A stretch of 33,391 nt of DNA from a virus: positions 1 to 33,391 of the IMG/VR virus record IMGVR_UViG_3300032285_005481, one strand, 5' to 3'. This document shows positions 5,182-24,708 of this stretch, in pieces (positions within the stretch are counted from its first letter, which is position 1; each line of letters begins with the position of its first letter). The notes beneath the pieces were generated by a model that saw only the letters and a program-made list of their open reading frames with translations, was not told the DNA's origin and did not search any database. The translations under genes were made by a program, and so were the position numbers.

Positions 5182-5634
5182 GGCGTAGTGGATGGGGCCT
5201 CCCGCTCAGCACCTCTCCTTGGTAGCCATGCGGGTCCCCGGATGCCAGCAACTTGGGGCGTGATCGGCTCAGGTGGCACTGCGCTGGGGGTGGGCTATTG
5301 CGCTGAGATAGGCCATGCGGGGAATACTCAGACTTGGCCAAGAGCTACGACCGCAGCTGTTGTGGGCACAGAGTCTGTTGATGGCCCGAAGCGCTGGCGT
5401 TGACCACTCCGACTCTCGCCTTGTGTAGCGGGCTGGACAGGTGGTTTGCAGACCCGAGAACCACAGCTAGTCTTGGCTCACAGCGACTCAAAAGTCATGT
5501 GAGAGCTGGAGTTGCTGAGATTACGGAAGGGGCTCCTACATTGATTACCGGAAATTGGCAAGACGATCCACCTGGTTCTCAGAACCATCCAAGAAGTAGT
5601 TAGGCTCTCCGAAAGAGTAGTGAGGCGTTTCGCC
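5182..5634. other. Non-coding stretch upstream of the DUF4365/SIR2 cargo
   Basis: This stretch of about 450 bases has no convincing gene on either strand, and base composition shifts from GC-rich phage DNA to more even cargo DNA near 5400. It contains a small palindrome (GGTTCT-C-AGAACC) around 5573-5585. At 5599-5605 it contains GTTAGGC, which matches the R' (GTTRRRY) core of integron recombination sites, 30 bases before the DUF4365 start. No matching R'' arm was found within the preceding 130 bases, so this could be an attI-like or degraded boundary, or chance. Confidence 0.4.
5599..5605 (+). other. GTTRRRY core, possible left cassette boundary
   Basis: The heptamer GTTAGGC fits the integron R' core consensus and lies 30 bases upstream of the ATG of the first cargo gene. 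That is about the distance by which the SIR2 start follows the core of the attC-like site at 6697-6782 (R' at 6776, ATG at 6800). A heptamer alone is weak evidence. Confidence 0.25.
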
Positions 5635-6642
5635 ATGAGCCTTCCAAAAGTCCCACCCACCCAGCATCAAGAGAGAATAGGGATCAACATTGTGGCGGAG
5701 ACTCTCGCGCGGATAAACCTAGTTTGGCGGGAGACTCCATCGACAGATGTCGGTATTGATGGCCAAATCGAGTTTATAAATGACTCAGGCGAGGCAACTG
5801 GTCAGATTGTCGCTGTACAGGTGAAATCCGGCCCTTCATACCTACGCGATGGGCCCGATGATAGCTGGGCATACTATCCTTCAGATGCTCATCGTCAGTA
5901 CTGGGAACAGTTTCCGGTTCCCGTTCTTCTATTTCTCTGTGATCCAGAGAATCGACTGGTTTTCTGGGTAGATGCACGTCAGTACCTAAGGTCACCAGTG
6001 AATGAAGGGAGAAGTGCCATTCTCGTTCCCAAGCGCTCGACACTTGAAGACAAGTCGAGAGGATCCCTGTTTGCCAATATTGGCGAGATCAACGGCAGAT
6101 TTCTTGATATAGACGAACTGATTAATGTACTCATGGAGAGAAGGATAGACAAGCCCGGATTCGCGATGTCTTTCTTCGACATTTATGCAACTGGCATTAC
6201 GAACATCGCAAATACACTTTATTTTGGCATGGATATTATTTGCAAGATTGCCGAGGCGCGAGCCGAAATTGCAACCACCGGCGAAGATGAATTCCAGTTC
6301 GCATATGATTACATGCGTTTCGTGGTCGCACAGCAACTTGCAGATGTTCCTTGGTCTGAATGCATGATTGATTGGCACGATAGAAATGTTGTGCCGTCAT
6401 GGATGGCTCGTCTTACGCGAAGGGGCCGGCAAGTCGTCGATCAAGTTTATGGCCTGGAGACGAAGCTCCGTGAAAGCGGTGTCATCGACGCACATCCGTT
6501 GCTGCACATAATGCAAGAGACATCTGTTTCAATGCAGTGGTCACCCTATACTTATGCACGGATAGATCTTTCCAGGGTTCTTCAGAATGAACACCTTGGA
6601 GCCGACTGCCAGTTTGCTATCGGACCAGAGGACATACAGTGA
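5635..6642 (+). CDS. DUF4365-type protein, possible PD-(D/E)XK nuclease, putative defence cargo
   Basis: The protein has 335 residues. Residues 11-70 carry the hallmark of DUF4365: an N-terminal R-x-G segment, then GIDGQIEF (D42, E46) and IVAVQVKSGPSY (Q62, K64). The D...QxK arrangement is that of a PD-(D/E)XK-type nuclease core, and DUF4365 proteins often sit with anti-phage or mobile genes. The C-terminal half is helical, contains FGMDIICKIAEARAEIATTGEDEFQF and is unrecognised. The start is ATG 5635 with TGAGG 9 bases upstream; a GTG 15 bases earlier is less likely. An attC-like site follows 54 bases after the stop, and the SIR2 gene comes next, so this looks like an integron cassette. Nuclease activity and partnership with SIR2 are inferred. 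Confidence 0.75.
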   Translation: MSLPKVPPTQHQERIGINIVAETLARINLVWRETPSTDVGIDGQIEFINDSGEATGQIVAVQVKSGPSYLRDGPDDSWAYYPSDAHRQYWEQFPVPVLLFLCDPENRLVFWVDARQYLRSPVNEGRSAILVPKRSTLEDKSRGSLFANIGEINGRFLDIDELINVLMERRIDKPGFAMSFFDIYATGITNIANTLYFGMDIICKIAEARAEIATTGEDEFQFAYDYMRFVVAQQLADVPWSECMIDWHDRNVVPSWMARLTRRGRQVVDQVYGLETKLRESGVIDAHPLLHIMQETSVSMQWSPYTYARIDLSRVLQNEHLGADCQFAIGPEDIQ

Positions 6643-6696
6643 ATCTAAGACTGCTAGCCAATGGCACCCTTGATAAAATATGTGTTGCTATTGTGT

Positions 6697-6782
6697 GCCT
6701 AACATCCAGATACAGAAGACGGGAGCGGGAGGTGCTTTGCACCGCGATACTTTCTGCCCGCTTCTGATCTGGGGCGTTAGCC
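6697..6782 (+). repeat. attC-like integron recombination site 1
   Basis: The left core is GCCTAAC (6697-6703; consensus RYYYAAC) and the right core is GTTAGCC (6776-6782; GTTRRRY with one mismatch). Inside, CCAGAT (6706-6711) pairs with ATCTGG (6767-6772) and CAGAAG (6713-6718) pairs with CTTCTG (6761-6766). A single unpaired A at 6712 on one arm is the expected extrahelical base. An inner GGTGC-TTT-GCACC hairpin (6731-6743) forms the terminal structure. The site lies directly between two cargo genes and is oriented as expected for a cassette carrying the upstream gene. Two relatives occur at 22505-22591 and 24624-24708. Confidence 0.8.
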
Positions 6783-6799
6783 GTGGAACGACAGACTAA

Positions 6800-9700
6800 A
6801 TGAGTGAAGCCGAAGTCGATGTGGCGGATCCAATCCGCCCCTATTTGAACGAAATCGCGGAACGCTTATGGGCCGAGCGCGCCGCTGTGATGGTCGGCGC
6901 GGGCTTCAGCAAGAACGCGGGAAATGGGTTTCCCGATTGGAACCAGCTAGGCAACCTATTTTATCAAAAGGCGCATGGGGTTAGTCCTGATGCAGCCAAA
7001 CAAAAGTATCTGAATGTCCTGCGGCTCGCGGAGGAGGTTCAGGCGGCCATCGGACGGCCCGCGCTGGAGAATTTGCTGCGCTCAAACATCCCGGATCTGA
7101 ACATCGAACCTTCCGGCCTCCATGTCGAGTTGCTTGAGCTGCCGTGGGTGGATGTATTCACCACCAATTACGATACCTTACTTGAACGGGCCAGCTCCAA
7201 GGTTGTGACCCGGCGATATGAGCCGGTGGTCAATAAAGAGGATATCCCTTACGCAATCAAGCCCAGAATTGTGAAGCTCCACGGCAGTTTTCCTTCGGAG
7301 CGCCCCTTTATCATCACCGAAGAGGATTACCGGCGCTATCCGCATGACTATGCCCCTTTTGTCAATACCGTTCAGCAGGCGCTTCTTGAAAACACCTTCT
7401 GCCTGATCGGATTTTCTGGAGACGACCCGAATTTTCTTGAGTGGATCGGCTGGATTCGCGACAATCTCGGCAAGGACAAGACGCAGAAAATCTATCTGGT
7501 CGGGGTCTTTGATCTGTCGTCCGCCAGGTTACAACTTCTTGCACAGCGCGGGATTATTGTCGTTGACTTTTCGTGCTGCGATGGAATCGAGAAACACGAC
7601 CACAAAAAGGCTTTGAGTCGGTTTTTCGAGTATATAAGGTCGAAAAAATCGGATGCTCTCGATTGGCCCTATAATCCCAAATCGATGCATCCTGCCCATG
7701 GCGCGGATCGCATCGAAGAGGTTCAGAAAATCACGGAAGAATGGCGGCGGCAGCGCCTAGCCTATCCCGGCTGGCTAATCCTGCCACATGGTAACCGCGA
7801 GAATTTGTGGGCATATACGGACGCCTGGGTCGACTACCTTCCATGCACAGAACAATCACCTCCTGGGTTAGATATTCAATACGCTTTCGAGCTGATCTGG
7901 AGGCTTGAAAGATGCCTGCTGCCGGTTTTCAAAAACATCGCAGTGTTCTGCGAGAAACTCCTCGAAAAGTACTGGCCATTTCAAAACGGACATTCCCCTG
8001 CGAAATGCAGGATCCACCCCGGGGAAGAGAAATTTGAAGACCTGCCATGGAATGACATCCGGCAGGGGTGGCTGGCCATCGCGGTGGCGATGCTGCGCTT
8101 CTATCGGGAGGAGGGATATCTCGATAAATGGAAGGAAGCAGAGAACAGGCTCGAGACCCTTCCTGACAATCTTTCGGCGGAACAAAAGGAATTTCTGAAT
8201 TACGAAGGCTTTCTCTTCAGCCTTTTTACCCTGGAGCTGCCCAACGCCAAACAGCGGCTTGAAAACTGGCGGCCCAACGAAGCGCAGCCCTACTGGATGG
8301 CGAAGCGTGCTGCTGGACTTGCTGAAATTGGTTTGCTCAGTGAGGCGGAAACAATTTCCAGAGATGCACTTGAAAACGTCAGAAAAAAACTAAATCAGAA
8401 GGTTGGTACTTCAGATCTCACCCTGGTTTCCCTGGAGAGCAATGCGATGCTATTGGGGAAATACATTCAAGATGCCGCCACTCTCGGGAAGGGTGAATGG
8501 GGAACACTGCAAGACAGGAGAGCACAATTCAATGATCGCTGGAATGAGTTGAAGGGGTTCAAGTGCGATCCATGGAACGAAATAAAGCTATTCGAGTTGA
8601 CCCTGAAAAATCCGCCAGCTCAGAAGAAAACTGTTACCGAGAATAGAGAGTTTGATATCGGCCGGATCACTCAAACTCGCCACTTCAGCAGTACCGACCA
8701 AGAGGGACTTAGTGCCTATGCCTTCCTCCGATTCTGCGAAGAGGTCGGCTTGCCATATCGCATCGGTAGCTACACGATGGCAACGAAAACCGCTTTGGCA
8801 AGCCTCCAACGCATCTCGAAATACTCTTCATTTTGGGCTATTGCCACACTAGTCAGGCTGGGAAATGCGAAGGCTGTTAATAGCCTGTTTAGCCGCGAGT
8901 CCGTTTACAGATTTACTACCCATGAGGCCGATCAATTCATTCAGAACTACTTGGATGCTCTTGATAAATGCCGAGATGACATCCACGCGGGCGATGCTTT
9001 CCGAAATGACAGTTACGGTGTACGCCTCGCCCAGCTACTGCCTGAAGTCATGTCGAGACTTTGCTGCAAATGTTCAGGCGAGACCAAGCGCTGCGTCCTT
9101 GAGTTTGTCAGCGAGATCTATGCTTCACCCGACAAAATAAATTATCGGAATGTGAAGAACCTGAGCAAACGGCTCATAAGCTCTATGTCTGAAGTGGAGC
9201 AATACAGTCTGGTTCCAGACTTGCTAAAAATTCCTTTCCCCGAAGATCTGAATCTGCTGATCAATGATGACTTCCTGAACCCCTTCCTGCTGCTCGAGCT
9301 CAATCAGAAGCCCGAATGTGCCCCAGCCTTGGAAATTCAACCCGGATTGGTAGACCATTTGTTCCGGCAAGCAACGTTGGACAACTCAGATCGTCGACGC
9401 TGGGCCCTCACATCCCTTGTAACACTGTACAAGTTACAGCTGCTCGACGACGGCCAAAGCAAGAACCTCGCAGGAGCCATCTGGCGTGTAACTGATCAGT
9501 ACGGCCTGCCAGATGGTACGGATTTCTATAAATATGTGTTTTTGAGATTTCCATACCCCGAGGCCGTTGACCCTGCTCAGCTTTTCAAATACTATGTGAT
9601 GTCCACGACTTTTCCGATTCAAAAAAACAAGCAAGACAAGGAAGTCAGCATAACGGGCGGAAACATCTCCATCGTTCACGAGATTATTTGTGCGAACGGC

Positions 9701-10528
9701 AATAGCGGAAGCATCTGGACAGCGGAAGATGCCGCCGAGATCCTGCAACGCGTGCTGGAATGGTGGGACGCCGACAAAGGCAGACTGAGTGAAAAGGAAA
9801 ATATGCCTGCAGGTTTTTCATCCATACAAGAGGAGTTTCGGGCAAGATTTTCCCGTATGCTCGAACTGCTCGCTGATGTCATAGGACCTAAGCTCAGCAC
9901 AGATTCACCTAGCGAAATTAAAACATCCCTTGGTCGACTTCTTAAGGAAGTTCGGGAGTTCGAATTGCCTGGTCTTGAAGCTGAAGCAGCGTGTCTTCAC
10001 ATATACCCCGATCAGAGGGCGGACGTTTATAGCCGAATCAATGAAGCATTGATTTCGAATCAAGAAAACATACAAAGAGATGGTCTCAGGGCTATCGCCA
10101 GAATTATCCTCGATGGCAACAATGCTTCTGCGTGTTCTGTGGAACATGATCCGGGATCAATGCTCAGCCAATACCTCACATGGTGTCCAATAGATTCCAT
10201 ATGCACAGCGCTTTGGATCATCGTCCGTATTCTGAAGAACTCGCCAAACAGTTTCTCCGAACTTCTAGAGGTGGCCACCCAAAGGCGGCTAAATAGGCTT
10301 CTTATCGATACGGCATACGATGGCGACAATCCAGCTCTGAATTTTGACGAGAAACTGGAAGTCCGGCGTATTTCTTCAATTCTGGCGGCGACGCTCTGGA
10401 CCTATTACAGGTCGCGGAACTTGTCCATTGCAGAGGCTGTTGAAAAATGGCGTGCGGCGTGCTTGTCCCCAGATGAGTTTTCCGAAATCCGGAAGCCATG
10501 GCAAGATATGGATGGATTCTGTGCATAG
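6800..10528 (+). CDS. Large SIR2-domain protein, DSR-like anti-phage NADase candidate
   Basis: The protein has 1242 residues. The N-terminal 240 form a SIR2-like domain: VGAGFS (GAGFS at 33-37), FTTNYD (N123), VKLHGS (H161) and GFSGDDPNF (204-212), so the NAD-binding and catalytic residues are present. The remaining 1000 residues are largely alpha-helical, lack a recognised enzymatic motif, and probably act as sensor/oligomerisation scaffold as in defence-associated sirtuins (DSR1/DSR2). In that family, phage proteins trigger NAD+ depletion and growth arrest. The gene starts 24 bases after the core of attC-like site 1, the usual layout of a cassette gene, and base composition is lower in GC than the phage backbone. 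No clear attC follows it. The domain call is firm; the defence role and trigger are inferred. Confidence 0.85.
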   Translation: MSEAEVDVADPIRPYLNEIAERLWAERAAVMVGAGFSKNAGNGFPDWNQLGNLFYQKAHGVSPDAAKQKYLNVLRLAEEVQAAIGRPALENLLRSNIPDLNIEPSGLHVELLELPWVDVFTTNYDTLLERASSKVVTRRYEPVVNKEDIPYAIKPRIVKLHGSFPSERPFIITEEDYRRYPHDYAPFVNTVQQALLENTFCLIGFSGDDPNFLEWIGWIRDNLGKDKTQKIYLVGVFDLSSARLQLLAQRGIIVVDFSCCDGIEKHDHKKALSRFFEYIRSKKSDALDWPYNPKSMHPAHGADRIEEVQKITEEWRRQRLAYPGWLILPHGNRENLWAYTDAWVDYLPCTEQSPPGLDIQYAFELIWRLERCLLPVFKNIAVFCEKLLEKYWPFQNGHSPAKCRIHPGEEKFEDLPWNDIRQGWLAIAVAMLRFYREEGYLDKWKEAENRLETLPDNLSAEQKEFLNYEGFLFSLFTLELPNAKQRLENWRPNEAQPYWMAKRAAGLAEIGLLSEAETISRDALENVRKKLNQKVGTSDLTLVSLESNAMLLGKYIQDAATLGKGEWGTLQDRRAQFNDRWNELKGFKCDPWNEIKLFELTLKNPPAQKKTVTENREFDIGRITQTRHFSSTDQEGLSAYAFLRFCEEVGLPYRIGSYTMATKTALASLQRISKYSSFWAIATLVRLGNAKAVNSLFSRESVYRFTTHEADQFIQNYLDALDKCRDDIHAGDAFRNDSYGVRLAQLLPEVMSRLCCKCSGETKRCVLEFVSEIYASPDKINYRNVKNLSKRLISSMSEVEQYSLVPDLLKIPFPEDLNLLINDDFLNPFLLLELNQKPECAPALEIQPGLVDHLFRQATLDNSDRRRWALTSLVTLYKLQLLDDGQSKNLAGAIWRVTDQYGLPDGTDFYKYVFLRFPYPEAVDPAQLFKYYVMSTTFPIQKNKQDKEVSITGGNISIVHEIICANGNSGSIWTAEDAAEILQRVLEWWDADKGRLSEKENMPAGFSSIQEEFRARFSRMLELLADVIGPKLSTDSPSEIKTSLGRLLKEVREFELPGLEAEAACLHIYPDQRADVYSRINEALISNQENIQRDGLRAIARIILDGNNASACSVEHDPGSMLSQYLTWCPIDSICTALWIIVRILKNSPNSFSELLEVATQRRLNRLLIDTAYDGDNPALNFDEKLEVRRISSILAATLWTYYRSRNLSIAEAVEKWRAACLSPDEFSEIRKPWQDMDGFCA

Positions 10529-10792
10529 CACAATTGCCGGTTTACGGATGAAAGGTAAATGCAGGGGGTGTACGAGGGGTGCTAGCGAAAGAGTAAAAGG
10601 GCTGGAGTTAAAACCGGCTAGCAAACGCTGCACTGGTACTGATTCCGCTGCGCTCCATCAGTACCAGCGAGCTTGGTCGCATCGACATCTGAGAACCTAA
10701 CTCGCGCCGCAGACATGGTGAAGCAAGAGATCAAAACCGGTCAGTCGATGCTGTAACGAGGCTGGCAATGGGGATGGTCAGCACCCCATCCC
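10529..10792. other. Intergenic region after the SIR2 gene with a perfect 11-bp hairpin
   Basis: No gene is seen. The strongest element is the inverted repeat at 10633-10643/10657-10667. There are also imperfect copies of AAAACCGG near 10611 and 10733, the second about 120 bases after the first, and an inverted CCGGTTT near 10537. A shorter stem (GGGATGG/CCATCCC) precedes the next gene around 10771-10792. This is where the 3' attC of the SIR2 cassette would be expected, but only a weak resemblance (AAAC ... GCTTGGT flanks) is present. Confidence 0.4.
10633..10667. repeat. Perfect inverted repeat, 11-bp arms
   Basis: The arms CTGGTACTGAT (10633-10643) and ATCAGTACCAG (10657-10667) are perfect complements around a 13-base GC-rich loop. 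No T-run follows on either strand, so a simple Rho-independent terminator is unlikely. It may be a structured RNA end, a protein-binding site, or the remnant of the missing attC. Confidence 0.6.
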
Positions 10793-11518
10793 ATGACCAC
10801 CCCGATGAGCGCCGAGCGATTCACCGATCGCTTCCGCTTCTACAAAGGCCAGCCCCAGCAGCAGCGGGGCGTTCTTGAGCTACATGCCGTCATCAGCAGC
10901 AGCGACAAGGGCGCAGAGATCCTCGATGAGCAGGCCCACTGGGCGCTCGCCTACAGCGAAGAGCCGCCTGCTCCAGCCGGTGGCCTCGATCCCCGCGGCT
11001 CAGAGGAGGACGGCATGGCCGGCCCGCAGAAGCCGGCACCAGTCCAACCCGGCGACACCTACCTGCTGGTGAACGACCGCGACCAGGACATGGAGGCCTA
11101 CGACCACACCGGGGCCTTCCTGTGGAAGATCCCCTGCCTGGCTCGCGGCCAGGGCGCCGACACGGACTGGACAAGCACCAACACCGACACCCCGCCTGGT
11201 CTCTACAAGCTCGGGAAGCTCTACGCGGACTACGAGCAGAACCCCAATTCCCCCTGCAGCGATACCGCCATGGGCTACGGCTGGTACTCCTTCGATATGG
11301 AGGAGCTGGAGGGCCAGGAGAAGAAGGTTGGCCGGGCCGGGATCATGCTCCACGGCGGTGGCTCGGCCTGCGGCTGGCCCGGGGCCTGGGCACCGCAGCA
11401 GCCCTTGCACCCCACCCTCGGCTGCGTGCGCCTGCACAACGCCGATCTGCGCGACAAGGTGCTGCCCCTCTACCGCCAGGGCACGGTGTATGTGGGGGTG
11501 TTCCAGGAAAAAAAGTGA
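10793..11518 (+). CDS. L,D-transpeptidase (YkuD-fold) protein, putative lysis enzyme
   Basis: The protein has 241 residues. The C-terminal half holds the YkuD catalytic signature: IMLHGGG (H187) followed 24 residues later by HPTLGCVRLHN (C211, R213). The upstream TDTPPGLYKLG is the 'TP.G.Y' motif of the same fold. The enzyme class cross-links or rearranges peptidoglycan through an active-site cysteine. There is no signal peptide, so in a phage setting export would need a holin or virion delivery. The N-terminal 85 residues are unrecognised. Its stop overlaps the start of the next gene (TGATG), and a two-TM holin candidate follows. It is GC-rich like the phage backbone and opposite in strand to the head genes. 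The fold is well supported; a wall-hydrolysing role is inferred. Confidence 0.75.
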   Translation: MTTPMSAERFTDRFRFYKGQPQQQRGVLELHAVISSSDKGAEILDEQAHWALAYSEEPPAPAGGLDPRGSEEDGMAGPQKPAPVQPGDTYLLVNDRDQDMEAYDHTGAFLWKIPCLARGQGADTDWTSTNTDTPPGLYKLGKLYADYEQNPNSPCSDTAMGYGWYSFDMEELEGQEKKVGRAGIMLHGGGSACGWPGAWAPQQPLHPTLGCVRLHNADLRDKVLPLYRQGTVYVGVFQEKK

Positions 11519-12114
11519 TGGCGGGCCAGGCCCCAGGGGCGTGTCCCCCTAGGGAGCCATCCCTGGCCCACGCCAACCTGCAGCACTGGCTGGAGTTCTT
11601 CTGCAGCAGCGCCGTCACCGAGGCCAGCCTGGGCGTCATCCAGCCCCTCACGGCGGAAGAGGCCTGCGGTTTCCTCGGCTGCATGGTCGTCGAGACCGGT
11701 GAACCGGAGCTGGAGAACCTCGGTGTCGTGGAGGCCGGCAGTGGTGCTGGCCGCGGTGCCATGCAGTACACGGGCGTGCGCCGCACCGCCTATGACGCAG
11801 CTCGGAGGCAGGCCATCGCTGAAGGGATCGATCCCAACAGTAACGCCTGGCAGGAGCAGTACTTCGCCGAGGAGTACGCCGGCCTGCACGATCCGCCCGA
11901 GGGCTCGTTGATCGGCTGGACCCGCGTCTTTGAAGACCGCCCTGCCGGCATGGATCCAGCCGCAGCGGCGGCCTACTGGACCGGATCAGCGGCAACAGCC
12001 GAGGGCTATTTCAGGCCGGGCACGCCCCACACCGAGCGACGCCAGGCGGAGGCCCAGCGCATCTGGGGGCTGCTGCAGAACGGTGAGCTGGTGCTGCCTC
12101 CAGCTGGGGCCTGA
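11518..12114 (+). CDS. Phage lysozyme-like (tail-lysozyme/endolysin) protein
   Basis: The protein has 198 residues, starting at the ATG that overlaps the stop of the transpeptidase gene. Residues 48-95 resemble phage lysozyme domains: GFLGCMVVETGEPELENLGVVEAGSGAGRG, with the 'E...G' arrangement and GAGRGAMQYTG, where QYTG replaces the usual Q-W/F-T. A C-terminal region contains ERRQAEAQRIWGLLQNG. The family cleaves glycan strands. No signal peptide is visible. Together with the transpeptidase-fold gene and the holin-like gene it forms a tightly spaced module, which supports a lysis role. I am less sure about which lysozyme family it belongs to. Confidence 0.6.
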   Translation: MAGQAPGACPPREPSLAHANLQHWLEFFCSSAVTEASLGVIQPLTAEEACGFLGCMVVETGEPELENLGVVEAGSGAGRGAMQYTGVRRTAYDAARRQAIAEGIDPNSNAWQEQYFAEEYAGLHDPPEGSLIGWTRVFEDRPAGMDPAAAAAYWTGSAATAEGYFRPGTPHTERRQAEAQRIWGLLQNGELVLPPAGA

Positions 12115-13343: not shown

Positions 13344-13428
13344 GCCCAAGGGCTCAGGCCCGGCTGCCATCGGGTGGCCGGGCTGTTGCAGCAGGCCTGG
13401 CAAGAGGCGGCATCAGCCCAGCAAGGCC

Positions 13429-13731
13429 ATGGCCACCCGCACCCGCACCCGCAAGAGCGGCACCGGCAAAAGCAGCACCAGAAAACCAAGGCACCAAGCA
13501 GGACGCAGCAGCACCGCGAGCCCCGCTCCTCAACTGCCGGGCATCAGTGCGGTGGAGCGGCGCAAGCTGGCCCAGGAGGAAGCCCGCTGGCGGGCCGAGA
13601 GCGACCTGCGCACCCTGCGGCAGGCAGAAGAGATCCGCCGGGATCCCGCCCGGCTCAAGCGGGCCGCCACCATGGCCGCCGAGGAAATGAAGGCGCTGCA
13701 GGCGGTCCGGGTGATTAAGCGGGGGCGTTGA
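13429..13731 (+). CDS. Small basic, helical phage protein
   Basis: The 100-residue protein has a strongly basic, Ser/Thr/Arg/Lys-rich first 30 residues (TRTRTRKSGTGKSSTRK), which looks disordered and nucleic-acid binding. This is followed by an amphipathic helix (AVERRKLAQEEARWRAESD) and a second helix ending VRVIKRGR. It could be a DNA- or RNA-binding packaging or regulatory protein. The assignment rests on composition only. It is the last of the GC-rich plus-strand genes. Confidence 0.55.
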   Translation: MATRTRTRKSGTGKSSTRKPRHQAGRSSTASPAPQLPGISAVERRKLAQEEARWRAESDLRTLRQAEEIRRDPARLKRAATMAAEEMKALQAVRVIKRGR

Positions 13732-14160
13732 GAAGGCCGCGTAACGAGTAGCGGTGGAGTACTTCCCTCAGCAAGGCGAGTAAGCATGGCCACTCATTCG
13801 ATTGATAAGAAATCCAAGGCAGCTGCCCGCTCATGAGCGGGGCGTCCCAGACGGCCGCCTTGGCTTTCCCGCGAGACGCAGCTGGAAGCAGCTACTTGGA
13901 GACGACCAAATCCATGCATGATCTGCATGGATTTGGAGAAGGGCTGGAGCCAAGTCAGACCCTTCTGCCCTGCCTCCCTCCGGTCTTATCTGGATCCTGT
14001 GAAGACCAATAAGACCAAAGGCCCCCTCCTGCAGAGTCACTGGAGCGCAGCGGGCCTACACTGCTAGGGGTAGTGACTTCGGGCTCTTATACGGACCAGG
14101 GCGAGCCCGGCTATTGCTTCGCGAAGATCCACCCAATTATAGTCGGGTGCCAAGAATCTC
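13732..14160. other. Non-coding stretch with several palindromes before the two-TM/LPO_1073 pair
   Basis: There are 429 bases without a convincing gene. It contains a CCCGCTCATGAGCGGG stem near 13828-13843, the perfect palindrome at 13906-13936, and a CGGGCTC/GAGCCCG stem (14080-14086/14103-14109) followed by CTTCGCGAAG (14117-14126). Composition falls from GC-rich to AT-richer across it. It marks the boundary between phage module and cargo and could hold the cargo promoter, a small RNA or a decayed recombination site. Confidence 0.45.
13906..13936. repeat. Perfect 13-bp inverted repeat
   Basis: CCAAATCCATGCA (13906-13918) pairs perfectly with TGCATGGATTTGG (13924-13936) around a 5-base loop. 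There is no T-run after it on either strand. The length and perfection suggest a regulator-binding site or a hairpin RNA rather than chance. Confidence 0.65.
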
Positions 14161-14427
14161 ATGCGCTCTACTATCCGACTTGTATCTCTTGCGGCTCTTC
14201 TCGTTTCGATTGCATGGCTGGCTTACCGACCAGCGTTCGACTCCGGGCTGGCGACAATCACGACCCTTGCGACTTTTCTCTCTTCGTTTCTTCCAAAGAA
14301 GGCACCCGCTGACCCAGGCGCTAAGCAATCTCAAAAGATCTCGTCTGGCTCTATCGGCATACAAGCTGGCGGAAACGTTAGGATTGAAAAGATGGGGGGA
14401 TGCAAGGGTAACGGCAATGTTGAGTGA
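14161..14427 (+). CDS. Small two-TM protein with IQAGGNV motif, candidate membrane effector
   Basis: The protein has 88 residues. It has two hydrophobic segments, about 7-22 (LVSLAALLVSIAWLAY) and 28-44 (SGLATITTLATFLSSFL), then a KK turn and a cytoplasmic tail with SGSIGIQAGGNVRIEKM (63-79). The IQAGGNV segment recurs, nearly identical, at the N-terminus of the protein encoded directly downstream, whose start lies inside this gene (11-base overlap). The motif resembles the (I/V)Q-x-G-x-N core of RHIM/amyloid signalling motifs. Two TM helices plus such a motif fits a small membrane effector that is recruited by a partner. No clear ribosome-binding site precedes the ATG. Function is inferred; the shared motif and topology are what can be seen. 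Confidence 0.7.
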   Translation: MRSTIRLVSLAALLVSIAWLAYRPAFDSGLATITTLATFLSSFLPKKAPADPGAKQSQKISSGSIGIQAGGNVRIEKMGGCKGNGNVE

Positions 14428-15271
14428 CAAACAAGATCAGAAAGTAGAAGGTGGCTCTACCGCGATTCAGGCGGGCGGTGACGTTCACTACCATGGCCTC
14501 TCCGTCTCAGAGGTTAAAGAGCTATGCACCCTCTTTCTGCGCAGTAATTTTCCCCAACTCCGGGAAGAGGCTAGGCAGGCTGCTGAGCAGCACGTCCGAG
14601 ATTTCGCCGCACAGCTAGAGAGCCGCATTGTTAACGATGCTGCATCAATTGCATTTGAGAAATTCAGAGAATCAGATGTTCAAGCAGCAATAAATGATGC
14701 GGTCCAAGCAAGTGCTCGCAAGGGTGCCGCAGCCAACCCTATCCTTCTAACAACGTTGATTGCTGAGCGGGTTTCTAAGCAGTCTTCAGACTACAAAGAT
14801 ATCGTTATTTCAGAGGCCGTTAATGTCATTCCTAAGCTGACGCCATCTCAGATTGCGTTGCTCTCCTTTGTCCACTTTGTTAAATCGATCACGATTCACG
14901 GTCTTTCCAGTGTTGCCGCGCTTGAGCCCTGCGGAGCAATTGTGCTGAAGCTTTCTGCTTCTGGCTTCAATCTCTCCGAATCACAGAAGCACCATATTCA
15001 GTACACGGGCGCCTGCTCAATAAATAGCATCTTGGGTGGCGACATATACGAAGCATTGCGTACAAATAGCTACAGTTACTTTAATATCCCAGACGCCGCA
15101 GCGTTCAAGTCGTCCATTGCAGCGCAAGCGCCATCATTCGCAGCACTTCTTGATCAGTTCGACAAAGAACAGCTTTTCTCCTTCAATCTCACGAGCGTAG
15201 GGCAAGCAATTGCGATTGCCAATATCTCGAACTACTTAGGCAAGCTCGATTATGCAATTTGGTTGAAATAA
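14417..15271 (+). CDS. LPO_1073/Vpar_1526-type protein with N-terminal IQAGGDV motif
   Basis: The protein has 284 residues. It opens MLSDKQDQKVEGGSTAIQAG, with the motif STAIQAGGDVHYHGL at residues 14-28, followed by SEVKELCTLFLRSNFPQLREEA and a long mixed helical body ending ISNYLGKLDYAIWLK. From memory this opening matches the uncharacterised LPO_1073/Vpar_1526 family found in scattered bacteria and mobile islands. I chose the ATG at 14417; AAGG lies 9 bases upstream and the start is inside the preceding gene, so translation is probably coupled. The DNA is AT-richer than the phage backbone. Its partner carries a related motif after two TM helices. A sensor or adaptor role is a hypothesis; no enzymatic motif is visible. 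Confidence 0.7.
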   Translation: MLSDKQDQKVEGGSTAIQAGGDVHYHGLSVSEVKELCTLFLRSNFPQLREEARQAAEQHVRDFAAQLESRIVNDAASIAFEKFRESDVQAAINDAVQASARKGAAANPILLTTLIAERVSKQSSDYKDIVISEAVNVIPKLTPSQIALLSFVHFVKSITIHGLSSVAALEPCGAIVLKLSASGFNLSESQKHHIQYTGACSINSILGGDIYEALRTNSYSYFNIPDAAAFKSSIAAQAPSFAALLDQFDKEQLFSFNLTSVGQAIAIANISNYLGKLDYAIWLK

Positions 15272-15330
15272 AATATGCCATACCGCGCTCAGGCGAACAT
15301 GTACAGCCTCTCGTGCAGGTCCGCGAAGCT

Positions 15331-15495
15331 TCACGTTGCGGTCAATGCCGCGACTGGTTCAGCCTTTTGATCGATATGGACCGCAAGCTCGATGGCCGCA
15401 TCAGCCATGAGCGCCCAGCCACCGCCGATAACGACTGCGCTGCCGCCGAGCCCGAACCTTGGCGCGAGCATTACCGAACTGGGGGCTGGAGCCAT
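15331..15495 (-). CDS. Small hydrophobic protein (54 residues)
   Basis: The minus strand encodes a 54-residue reading frame with a hydrophobic centre (GLGGSAVVIGGGWALMADAAIEL) and ordinary composition throughout. It overlaps the 3' end of the basic protein at 15401-15688 in another frame, and in the overlap it looks more protein-like than that gene's Arg-rich tail. It lies in the head-gene series just downstream of the scaffold-like gene. It could be a small phage membrane or structural protein, or the two could be one gene with a frameshift. Confidence 0.4.
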   Translation of the reverse strand: MAPAPSSVMLAPRFGLGGSAVVIGGGWALMADAAIELAVHIDQKAEPVAALTAT

Positions 15496-21505: not shown

Positions 21506-21747
21506 TGGCTACTGATGGGGTCAGAGCCATTGCCAGAGTCCATAATTTGCTGCGGGCAGGGCTGTGCACCATCCGCATGGCTTCAGTCAGCTCATCCGGA
21601 CAAGCGGATCGGCCAGATCAAGAAGGATGCCTTCTTATGCGGACCACGAAGGGGCGAACAATCTCTTAGCGAGGGTTCGCCCATATAGCGGTCAAGGCAT
21701 CCAATAAGACGCGATAGAGTGCTTTTAGAACGACTGCACCACTTTGG
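21506..21747. other. Intergenic region between portal start and cassette array
   Basis: No gene is seen in these 242 bases. There is a short perfect hairpin AAGAAGG-ATG-CCTTCTT (21620-21636) and a GGGCGAAC/GTTCGCCC inverted repeat (21652-21659/21675-21682) with a 15-base spacer. The second contains GTTCGCC, near the integron R' consensus, but is far too short to be attC. Promoters for the portal (minus) and the cassette (plus) must lie here, but none was assigned. Confidence 0.4.
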
Positions 21748-22485
21748 ATGATGCAAGTATTCGGAAAGCGACGCCGATCCATTGGCCGCTGGATGTGTAA
21801 CATTACTCACAACGCCTCCTCGTTTTACGCTGCGGCTGGCCTTGTTTTCGTCATATCAGCATGGAGTGCATCCAATATCACTATCGACAAGGCGAGCAAG
21901 GCTCTTTTCGCTGTTCCTGGTGCCACTGCTCTCTTTTCAATAGTCTATAAACTTTGGAAAGACGAAAGGGCTCACGAGAGGCAAGTCGAGCTCCAGGCGA
22001 GACAACAAGATTTTGCGTTTCTGCCTGCATCGCATATGGCTAGCGTAGCTTATGACAAGCACGTAGAATTTTGCGAAGAATATCTTGAAGCGGTCAACAA
22101 AGCAGTCTTTGAGCTCTGGGCTGATGGCCCCAATGTCAAAGCCTTAGACCACGCAAATAGACTTAGAGATATTCGCGATCGGCATACCGCGTGGCTGACT
22201 AGAGAGATAGAAGAGAAGCTCTTCCCGATTGAATCTGCACTACGACAGATTGGAGCAGGGTCGCACGTGTTGCCGCTCGTTCAACCTGGTTCGCAACGCA
22301 GCAAAATTGTTGATGATGTGTACAGCGCATTTGGCAAGATCACGGAATCTGGCAAGGAGAACGAGGGCTCAGCTGCTGCGGTAGCCTCAATTACCGATTC
22401 TTTGAGAGAGTTGCTTGGCATCAAGGAGCTTACTGAGCTGAGGACAGAAGTGACAAAACTCGCAAGAAAAAGACTTCGTCAGTAA
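21748..22485 (+). CDS. Two-TM helical membrane protein, cassette gene
   Basis: The 245-residue protein has a basic N-terminus, TM segments at about 25-41 (FYAAAGLVFVISAWSAS) and 51-69 (KALFAVPGATALFSIVYKL), then a cytoplasmic helical domain with HERQVELQARQQDFAFL and HMASVAYDKHVEFCEEYLEA. This layout recurs in a group of unnamed proteins I associate with integron cassettes and accessory islands; I do not know their function. The AT-rich composition contrasts with flanking phage genes. An attC-like site begins 20 bases after the stop, so this gene and site together make a cassette. It has two adjacent ATGs and no clear ribosome-binding site; an in-frame ATG lies at 21793. Confidence 0.7.
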   Translation: MMQVFGKRRRSIGRWMCNITHNASSFYAAAGLVFVISAWSASNITIDKASKALFAVPGATALFSIVYKLWKDERAHERQVELQARQQDFAFLPASHMASVAYDKHVEFCEEYLEAVNKAVFELWADGPNVKALDHANRLRDIRDRHTAWLTREIEEKLFPIESALRQIGAGSHVLPLVQPGSQRSKIVDDVYSAFGKITESGKENEGSAAAVASITDSLRELLGIKELTELRTEVTKLARKRLRQ

Positions 22486-22504: not shown

Positions 22505-22591
22505 CTCAAACATCCAAATTCAGAAAGCGGGAGCAATGGCTGGTTTATATACCGAGATCCCTGCCCGCGCATCTGGCTTGGAGCGCTAGGC
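22505..22591 (+). repeat. attC-like integron recombination site 2
   Basis: The left core is CTCAAAC (22505-22511) and the right core is GCTAGGC (22585-22591), the most degenerate pair of the three. The inner arms keep the same plan as site 1: CCAA then CAGA then GCGGG on the left, CCCGC then TCTG then TTGG on the right, with unpaired bases on one side. A GGT...ACC stem lies in the centre. The phrase AACATCCA followed by TTCAGAA repeats the corresponding segment of the other two sites. It lies between two cargo genes. Confidence 0.6.
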
Positions 22592-22630
22592 TTGCTGGAA
22601 ATAAACTCTTTGATCAGCAGGATTGCTAGA

Positions 22631-23614
22631 ATGGGAAGCGAAAGAACTTCTTGGTCTGAATTGAATCTTATCGAGAGAAGAATGGTCTCGATAATGGCGC
22701 CGGACTATAATACACAAAGGCCCGTCAAATGGCTTGATTTTGACTGCGATGATCCAGCCAAGCTGTGGGTTAAGGAAGCTAATTCAATAACAATGGACTT
22801 TGGAGGCGTCTTTCATAGTATATTCCTAAGATGGGCCGTCACCGTGAATGGCCTCCATGTGGCTGCGGATAGATATAAGTCAAGTGAATGGATAGACTGC
22901 GGGAAGCACTTTGCTGTTACGGGCTTTAGGAACGCGCTAGATGGAAGTGGGCCCTCTCAAACATATGTACGCATTTGGGATGGGCCAAGCGCATCCGAAG
23001 TACATTCAGGCTCTATTCCCATGCTTGCCGCATGGGCTTTCTGCAATATGTATGCATGCTTGGAGGAGTTTATATTCAAGCTCTTTAGAACTTACCTTAA
23101 ATCAAATCCTCTTTCCATTTGTCAGGGCAACGAGTTCAAGCACCTGCGCAAGGCATATCAAGAGAGAACTCTCACCGATGACGATCTATCTGCGTGGAAC
23201 ACGAAATGGGAGGAGAGGCTCGATTCATGGCACAGAAAAAAGCTTTACGATAAGATCGAGAATGTCTTTAACAATCTAGTTCGCAATACTGGGATTGAAA
23301 TGCCCGCCGGCTACGGGAACAAGTTTGACTTTGGCGATGTAGCGAAGACACTGGGCGGAATTGCATTGATTAGAAATTGCTTTATCCACGGCGAAACAGA
23401 TGTTCCTGAAGAGTTGGGCAACTTTTGCGACTCGCCTCAGTCGTTATTTTTTAACTATAGAACCGGTGATCGACTTGAAATCACTCTTCACGAGCTTGCC
23501 ACGTTTGAGTATTTTGCTGATACCTTTACACAAACGTTAAACACGAGCCTTTTTGAGCTGATGCATCCTGAAGTAAAAAATCTAGCAACAAAATCCATCG
23601 GACGGAAGCGATGA
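22631..23614 (+). CDS. HEPN-motif protein 1, putative RNase cargo
   Basis: The protein has 327 residues. Near its end is LIRNCFIHGET with R248 and H253 in Rx4H spacing, the catalytic motif of HEPN ribonucleases, on a predicted helix. Upstream is another helix pair around AFCNMYACLEEFIFKLFRTYL. The N-terminal 100 residues contain beta-rich segments (WLDFDCDDPAKLWV, FGGVFHSIFLRWAV) and are unrecognised. I start at ATG 22631 with AGCAGGA upstream; a TTG at 22592 directly after attC-like site 2 also opens the frame. HEPN proteins cleave RNA in toxin and abortive-infection systems. The motif is visible; substrate and activity are inferred. A second HEPN-motif gene follows 100 bases later. Confidence 0.65.
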   Translation: MGSERTSWSELNLIERRMVSIMAPDYNTQRPVKWLDFDCDDPAKLWVKEANSITMDFGGVFHSIFLRWAVTVNGLHVAADRYKSSEWIDCGKHFAVTGFRNALDGSGPSQTYVRIWDGPSASEVHSGSIPMLAAWAFCNMYACLEEFIFKLFRTYLKSNPLSICQGNEFKHLRKAYQERTLTDDDLSAWNTKWEERLDSWHRKKLYDKIENVFNNLVRNTGIEMPAGYGNKFDFGDVAKTLGGIALIRNCFIHGETDVPEELGNFCDSPQSLFFNYRTGDRLEITLHELATFEYFADTFTQTLNTSLFELMHPEVKNLATKSIGRKR

Positions 23615-23714
23615 TGCATGTATTATAGCTTAAAGTATTGCTCCACTGCTAATCTTGAGAGTTGGGTAACAACCAAAGCGCTATCGCCCTCTTGCGTCAT
23701 TCTGTGACGGGACT

Positions 23715-24560
23715 ATGGCACGTCTAGTACTCGATGAAGCGGCGATGGCTCTTGCAGTAAAGCAACTGCCTGGGCAACCAATCTTCAGCACTCCAGGTGG
23801 CGGTCTTCTTGAGCCCAGGATCATTGACATTATCGAAGAAAAGCCGAATCCAACTGGTTGGCAACCACTCAATGAGCTATCCCGCTTACTTCTCTTTGGA
23901 ACTGAGCCGTGCCGAGACATTGTCTTTCATTTAGACAAGTTCATGAATGCTCAAGATAGGCGTCGAGCAATAAAGGCGATGACAATTCCGATCTGCACAC
24001 TTATGGACATCGTCGGCGACCTACTTTCTTTGCTCAATTCGCAGGAAGCACGACGAGAGAGAGAACGCTGGCTTCCCGGCGATATTGCTACCTACAGGGA
24101 TCTTAGTCGACGCCTTCGGAAGAGGCACATGCGCGGCCCAGTTCGGGAATTTCGCAACAAGCTAGGCGCCCATGTTGATGAAACGGTCATTCAAAGTCGC
24201 ATCCCTCTACCGAGCTCAGCGGATATTTTGTCAGCATATGGGGACAGCCTTGTTCTTCTAGTTCTTTCCACGAACTATCCATCAGATTTTTTCGGTTGGA
24301 TAAGGCCAGGCTGCGGTTCTCCTGGCCCAGGGTTGGCGAGCGTCCAAACGATGTTTAGCTATCCACTGTGCGTTGAGTGGCATGTAGATCATAATGGTTG
24401 CGTGCATTCTGTTGGGCCCCTGACCTTAGCGGCTGATCCAAGACACGAGATCCGCAAGTACATCTTCGAGGGTATCAAAGCGTATAATCGGATGGCTGAC
24501 GAGAGCAATTGCGGACTTCGTCAGATAATTCAGATTGAGCATTCGCCTCATTCAATCTGA
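23715..24560 (+). CDS. HEPN-like protein 2, putative partner of HEPN protein 1
   Basis: The protein has 281 residues. REFRNKLGAHVDE at 144-156 carries R147 and H153 (Rx5H), with the RN dipeptide often seen in HEPN families. A preceding helical segment contains VGDLLSLLNSQEARRERERWL. The N-terminal 70 residues (LVLDEAAMALAVKQL) and the late GWIRPGCGSPGPG segment are unrecognised. It is 100 bases downstream of the first HEPN-motif gene, and the only attC-like site nearby follows this gene, so the two may form one two-gene cassette. Whether they make a heterodimeric RNase is an inference. Confidence 0.65.
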   Translation: MARLVLDEAAMALAVKQLPGQPIFSTPGGGLLEPRIIDIIEEKPNPTGWQPLNELSRLLLFGTEPCRDIVFHLDKFMNAQDRRRAIKAMTIPICTLMDIVGDLLSLLNSQEARRERERWLPGDIATYRDLSRRLRKRHMRGPVREFRNKLGAHVDETVIQSRIPLPSSADILSAYGDSLVLLVLSTNYPSDFFGWIRPGCGSPGPGLASVQTMFSYPLCVEWHVDHNGCVHSVGPLTLAADPRHEIRKYIFEGIKAYNRMADESNCGLRQIIQIEHSPHSI

Positions 24561-24623: not shown

Positions 24624-24708
24624 GTTCAACATCCCGATACAGAAGGCGAGGGCGGGAACCAGGCGCTATCCCCAGATTCCCGCCGGCCTCTGGTCCGGGG
24701 CGTTCAGT
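24624..24708 (+). repeat. attC-like integron recombination site 3
   Basis: The left core is GTTCAAC (24624-24630; full RYYYAAC match) and the right core is GTTCAGT (24702-24708; one mismatch to GTTRRRY). The arms fold CCCG/CGGG, CAGA/TCTG and GGCGGGAA/TTCCCGCC around a central loop. It shares AACATCC and GATACAGAAG with site 1, and GGGGCGTT before the core. The right core overlaps the stop codon (24704-24706) of the sigma-like gene on the opposite strand. It is the downstream edge of the cassette array. Confidence 0.75.

Follow-up and report, generated by a model that had tools for sequence, protein, structure and literature searches.

The DUF4365 gene and the adjacent gene for a large SIR2-domain protein described here are probably separate pieces of cargo in a cassette-type array carried by a cyanophage, each working alone and recruited by integron-type recombination, probably with an integrase acting in trans; the probability of this reading is roughly 0.7. 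The pair looks like a swappable armoury and not like one two-gene system.

The window, i.e. the whole 33,391-bp stretch of DNA analysed, is the IMG/VR record IMGVR_UViG_3300032285_005481, a linear metagenomic fragment. Its backbone, with a GC content of ∼70%, encodes TerL, portal, major head protein, DNA primase, and helicase. The best matches of the TerL among annotated phages are Synechococcus phages S-CBS2 and S-CRES1-3 and cyanophage PSS2, at 34–37% identity, and the window is a fragment of a freshwater cyanophage. Three islands of ∼50% GC break the backbone at roughly 5.3–10.8 kb (island 1), 13.9–15.4 kb (island 2), and 21.5–24.8 kb (island 3). The cargo genes of the islands lie on the + strand, and the adjoining structural genes lie on the opposite strand. 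Directly beside island 1, at positions 10793–12114, an L,D-transpeptidase-like (YkuD) ORF precedes one that has a phage tail lysozyme domain. Scans for sigma-70 promoters and terminators gave no excess over shuffles, and an Rfam search gave no matches.

Nine close phage relatives were found and their records compared with the window. The sharp GC steps at the islands and the origin of the sequence as a linear metagenomic fragment would suit a chimeric assembly or non-phage DNA within the contig, but the nine relatives keep the same backbone order on either side of the islands at roughly 79–93% DNA identity and most of them have low-GC cargo of their own at island 3, making a chimera extremely improbable. 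The features of the window are collected in Table 1.

Table 1. Genes, attC-type sites, and leaders in the window, with the basis of each assignment
Feature	Position	Strand	Basis
Island 1 leader, attI-like (putative); inferred crossover G5599|TTAGGC	5434-5605	+	75% identity to the G006 leader
DUF4365 gene, PD-(D/E)xK nuclease-like, 335 aa	5635-6642	+	PF14280, 6.3e-27
attC-type site between the DUF4365 and DSR2 genes	6697-6782	+	R''/R' boxes, hairpin, 88 bits (model seed)
DSR2 gene, SIR2-domain NADase family, long helical C-terminal part, 1242 aa	6800-10528	+	NF041819, PADLOC Dsr2
Hairpin closing island 1, possibly a degenerate attC	10615-10685 (about)	+	Sequence and fold; no canonical boxes
Island 2: attI-like leader motif (14088) and LPO_1073/Vpar_1526 family gene	13384-15415		Comparison with relatives; NF045477; leader motif
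Island 2 gene, LPO_1073/Vpar_1526 family	14114-15271 (ORF)	+	NF045477, 1e-72, 245 bits
Island 3 leader, attI-like (putative), TTATGCGGACCA...ATATAGCG|	21636-21691	+	Shared with relatives
Island 3 cargo gene, no family match	21748-22485	+	ORF and Pfam search
attC of island 3, same family as 6697-6782	22505-22591	+	71.7 bits, model seed
Island 3 cargo gene, weak HEPN_RiboL-PSP match	22592-23614	+	PF18735, 2.3e-5, below the Pfam cut-off
Possible diverged attC, R' GTTGGGT	23580-23667	+	21.6 bits, E 0.035
Island 3 cargo gene, no family match	23715-24560	+	ORF and Pfam search
Last attC of island 3, R' box completed by phage DNA G|TTCAGT	24624-24708	+	78.1 bits, seed; junction common to relatives

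The DSR2 gene and its DUF4365 neighbour

According to two curated libraries, the SIR2 protein is a full-length equivalog of DSR2. It matches NCBIfam NF041819 at 1643.6 bits (cut-off 1400) over profile positions 3–1215 of 1215 and PADLOC Dsr2 at 1516 bits, and its SIR2 domain matches PF13289 at 1e-22. The original prediction described the features of the gene correctly, including intact GAGFS, TTNYD, and KLHGS motifs (residues 33, 121, and 159), and missed the surrounding phage and the membership of the SIR2 protein in a named family. The residues for NAD hydrolysis are in place: N123 and H161 correspond in the alignment to N133 and H171 of Bacillus subtilis DSR2, mutation of which lowers the NADase activity (PMC10981675).

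The closest relatives of the window gene, at 68–79% protein identity and up to 88% DNA identity, come from an Opitutales MAG, a Desulfobacteraceae MAG, Gilvimarinus, and Halomonas, and the similarity between the window and these four loci comprises essentially the DSR2 gene alone. The occurrence of relatives in such varied bacteria indicates that the gene has moved widely. The Desulfobacteraceae relative (L073, 9992-13930) has KLNGS in place of KLHGS in a gene that is otherwise intact, so that the catalytic histidine appears to be replaced by asparagine. A scan of viral contigs found no DSR2 relatives, and the phage collection contained one match at 26%.

The likeness to DSR2 (NF041819; B. subtilis, PMC10981675) consists of the full-length curated match, the two catalytic residues, the long helical C-terminal part, and the structural matches of a predicted model of moderate confidence (mean pLDDT 68), whose 25 best PDB matches are DSR2 entries (Foldseek E 6e-10). 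Unlike B. subtilis DSR2, the window DSR2 is borne by a phage. Beyond the SIR2 domain, its sequence shows no similarity to that of the solved B. subtilis protein, and its model superposes poorly on the DSR2 structures (TM 0.15–0.28); the trigger may therefore be something other than a tail tube protein.

The D...QxK nuclease-like core proposed for the DUF4365 protein agrees with the Pfam match and with the conservation of D42, E46, Q62, and K64 across four homologs. The DUF4365 domain, with both Q62 and K64, is shared with the short-Argonaute DUF4365 nuclease TmuRE (SPARDA), in which the Q and K are reported active-site residues (PMC10810196). In contrast with short-Argonaute systems, the window gene has DSR2 as its neighbour and no adjoining Argonaute gene, and the match to PADLOC Aga_REase is limited to the N-terminal part (residues 5–135, profile positions 4–128 of 429) and ends at residue 135. 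The C-terminal half belongs to a different, unnamed type, which proteins of Rhizobium and Scytonema plasmids also have. An assignment as a SPARDA or short-Argonaute component was rejected, as there is no APAZ match and no pAgo neighbour. Full-length relatives of the DUF4365 protein were found on one Rhizobium and one Scytonema plasmid. On the Escherichia coli plasmid pLD39-1-134kb (L129, 4965-5330), a short ORF beside insertion sequences matches only residues 216–321, at 40%, and looks like a remnant of the family.

Whether the two genes form one system

The original prediction had suggested that the two genes might be one defence system, a nuclease plus an NADase. The genes are adjacent and collinear in one island, and in one genome (G511) some 5 kb lie between a DUF4365 gene and a SIR2_2 gene, but several observations make such a two-gene system highly unlikely. 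An attC separates the two genes, and DSR2 works as a single gene in published work (PMC10981675). On the Scytonema and Rhizobium plasmids, the full-length DUF4365 relatives stand beside different genes. DUF4365 is missing from all four genomes that encode the nearest DSR2 relatives (68–79%); three of these four DSR2 genes adjoin type I restriction-modification genes. The six genomes with more distant DSR2-like genes have one DUF4365 gene in total, on a different contig, and none near the DSR2-like loci. Of 289 genomes searched, 14 have DUF4365, and G511, in which other genes lie between, is the only one of the 14 with a SIR2_2 gene ∼5 kb off. The samples are small, yet recurrent linkage should have shown in them, and the reading as one system is left without support. 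The original prediction named a lack of recurrent linkage as refuting, and in the samples searched no such linkage was found.

The gene order originally described, collinear genes with an attC-like site between them, is found as DUF4365, attC, SIR2, all on the + strand, and we agree that a gene of 3.7 kb is long for an integron cassette. The description of the two as adjacent cassettes holds in part. In its favour are the intervening attC, the difference in GC content, and the lack of the island in relatives, but no attC can be recognised as belonging to DSR2, and its status as a cassette is therefore less certain than that of DUF4365. The DUF4365 gene has the layout of a cassette in the direction of the array, with GTTAGGC at 5599, the gene, and then the attC, whose R' box GTTAGCC is one letter off. 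Downstream of the DSR2 gene there is no canonical attC, only the hairpin without canonical boxes that closes island 1. This hairpin occupies the position of the last attC in G006, and phage homology resumes at about 10685.

attC-type sites, leaders, and junctions in the related phages

The attC between the two genes consists of R'' GCCTAAC, R' GTTAGCC (against the consensus GTTRRRY), and a long imperfect hairpin. The family to which it belongs numbers seven copies in four phages (three in the window, two in G006, and one each in G004 and G009), all inside cargo. A brute-force search for R''/R' boxes with folding was non-discriminating in GC-rich DNA, and a covariance model built on the seven family copies was used instead. 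The scores of these seven seeds are high by construction, whereas an eighth copy, in G009, is a non-seed and was detected at 40.6 bits (E 5.6e-7). The model found nothing comparable in the non-phage loci searched, plasmids searched by blastn had no similar attC, and a scan with the attC core pattern yielded a single partial match in addition to the known G004 copy (L100). The helix shows limited covariation, with compensatory change in 5 of 26 pairs and a slightly unfavourable RNAalifold covariation term, and the support for the attC sites comes from the sequence family, the boxes, and the hairpin jointly.

Islands 1 and 3 carry putative attI-like leaders at their left ends, and the leaders end at the expected G|TT point. 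At island 1, the leaders of the window and G006 are 75% identical though the cargo differs, and the identity stops at AG|TTA(G/T)GC; G006 has other genes at this site, including another SIR2 gene, and the island is absent from G005 and G007. Island 2 is absent from G001, G002, G005, G006, G007, and G008. In the relatives without islands 1 and 2, these are missing as whole blocks, including the leaders. The leader at the left end of island 3, TTATGCGGACCA...ATATAGCG|, is common to the window, G005, G006, G007, and G009, and a similar motif is present in island 2.

Island 3 is a hypervariable cargo site. Its contents are different in every relative, and none of the records compared has an empty island 3. 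The right end does not shift along the phage sequence; it lies at G|TTCA in most records and adjoins what reads as the stop codon of an opposite-strand gene. An attC-like hairpin is present at this junction in seven of ten records (p<0.05 each), and jointly the junctions stand out against other positions in the islands (Mann-Whitney p=4e-5); G002, G007, and G008 have no convincing hairpin there.

The cargo of the relatives is varied. Island 3 of G001 contains a Lamassu LmuA/LmuB pair (L095, 2527-5983) where the window has three other genes, in DNA that is not low-GC. The SIR2-domain gene at island 1 of G006 (L084, 3180-4814) is ThsA-like, unrelated to DSR2, and occupies the same site as DSR2 in the window; the cargo of this phage also includes an alpha/beta hydrolase. 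G005 harbors a GmrSD-type enzyme, G003 a DinD-like gene, and G009 an HNH protein. The presence of Lamassu, GmrSD, and SIR2/ThsA-like genes in the relatives indicates that defence genes are common in these sites. In the window itself, the island 2 ORF has a weak match to the candidate defence family PDC-S47, and the gene probably begins within the ORF as listed; the gene in the island 3 ORF at 22592 likewise has its true start inside that ORF.

Recruitment of the cargo and relation to known systems

As independent cargo, the two proteins would each contribute a separate defence. DSR2 would be an abortive-infection NADase that uses its helical C-terminal part to detect a protein from another phage during infection; once triggered, its SIR2 domain would destroy NAD+ and the infected cell would stop. 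The DUF4365 protein would act as a PD-(D/E)xK nuclease against foreign DNA, with its own separate trigger. A carrier residing as a prophage would shield the host, and hence itself, against competing phages. Should the phage have a tail, as its siphovirus relatives do, and should its DSR2 respond to the tail tube protein as in B. subtilis, the carrier would have to escape setting off its own cargo. Judging from weak PF00589 matches, G005 and G007 encode putative phage tyrosine recombinases (407–443 aa), which would suit a temperate life; by the IntI model they are not integron integrases.

The cargo was probably recruited by integron-type recombination at the phage sites, with crossover at G|TT. 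Cassette insertion at this point would account for a junction that stays in place, cargo genes that share one direction, and contents that change. A search for intI (TIGR02249) in 12 phage records, all of them fragments, gave none over the cut-off (best 17 bits), and the integrase is therefore assumed to come most likely from either the host or some co-resident bacterium. Cyanobacteria are known to carry chromosomal integrons. Ordinary phage recombination must also act, since islands 1 and 2 are absent in one piece, leaders included.

The absence of whole islands together with their leaders, the lack of intI in any record, and the unconvincing hairpins at 3 of 10 junctions also fit ordinary morons that arrived by homologous or illegitimate recombination, in which the attC sites would be disused passengers from bacterial arrays; such routes for phage attC clusters are discussed by Qi et al. 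2023 (PMC9892861). This origin is unlikely, as the island 3 junction is fixed to one nucleotide with different attC families in different phages and the leaders stop at the G|TT point. Integron-type recruitment with an integrase in trans is thus preferred for the two genes. The broader proposal, that a freshwater cyanophage lineage keeps attI-like docking sites and swaps defence cassettes (DSR2, Lamassu, GmrSD, SIR2 genes, and nucleases) via a host integrase, is evenly poised.

Prophage and satellite defence hotspots, such as those of P2/P4-like elements, are fixed sites that hold different defence systems in related phages. The islands share with them the varying defence systems at fixed sites of related phages and differ in that the window contents are bounded by attC-type sites. 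The integron parts and attC clusters described in phages by Qi et al. 2023 (PMC9892861) likewise combine attC sites with same-direction cassettes and lack an integrase; here, in contrast, related phages share docking positions and leaders, the contents vary, and the cargo is defence-rich. Chromosomal integrons store defence genes as attC cassettes, according to Darracq et al. 2025 (as reviewed in PMC12409362). The window array is similar in holding defence genes as attC cassettes and different in being phage-borne and without its own integrase. Phage-borne attC clusters, defence cassettes, and prophage defence hotspots are already known kinds, and the context of the gene pair is of more interest than the pair itself. 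If true, a phage family with conserved docking sites would join chromosomal defence integrons and prophage hotspots, and would provide a route for bacterial defence cassettes between hosts, with the phage as a mobile carrier of the bacterial cassette pool.
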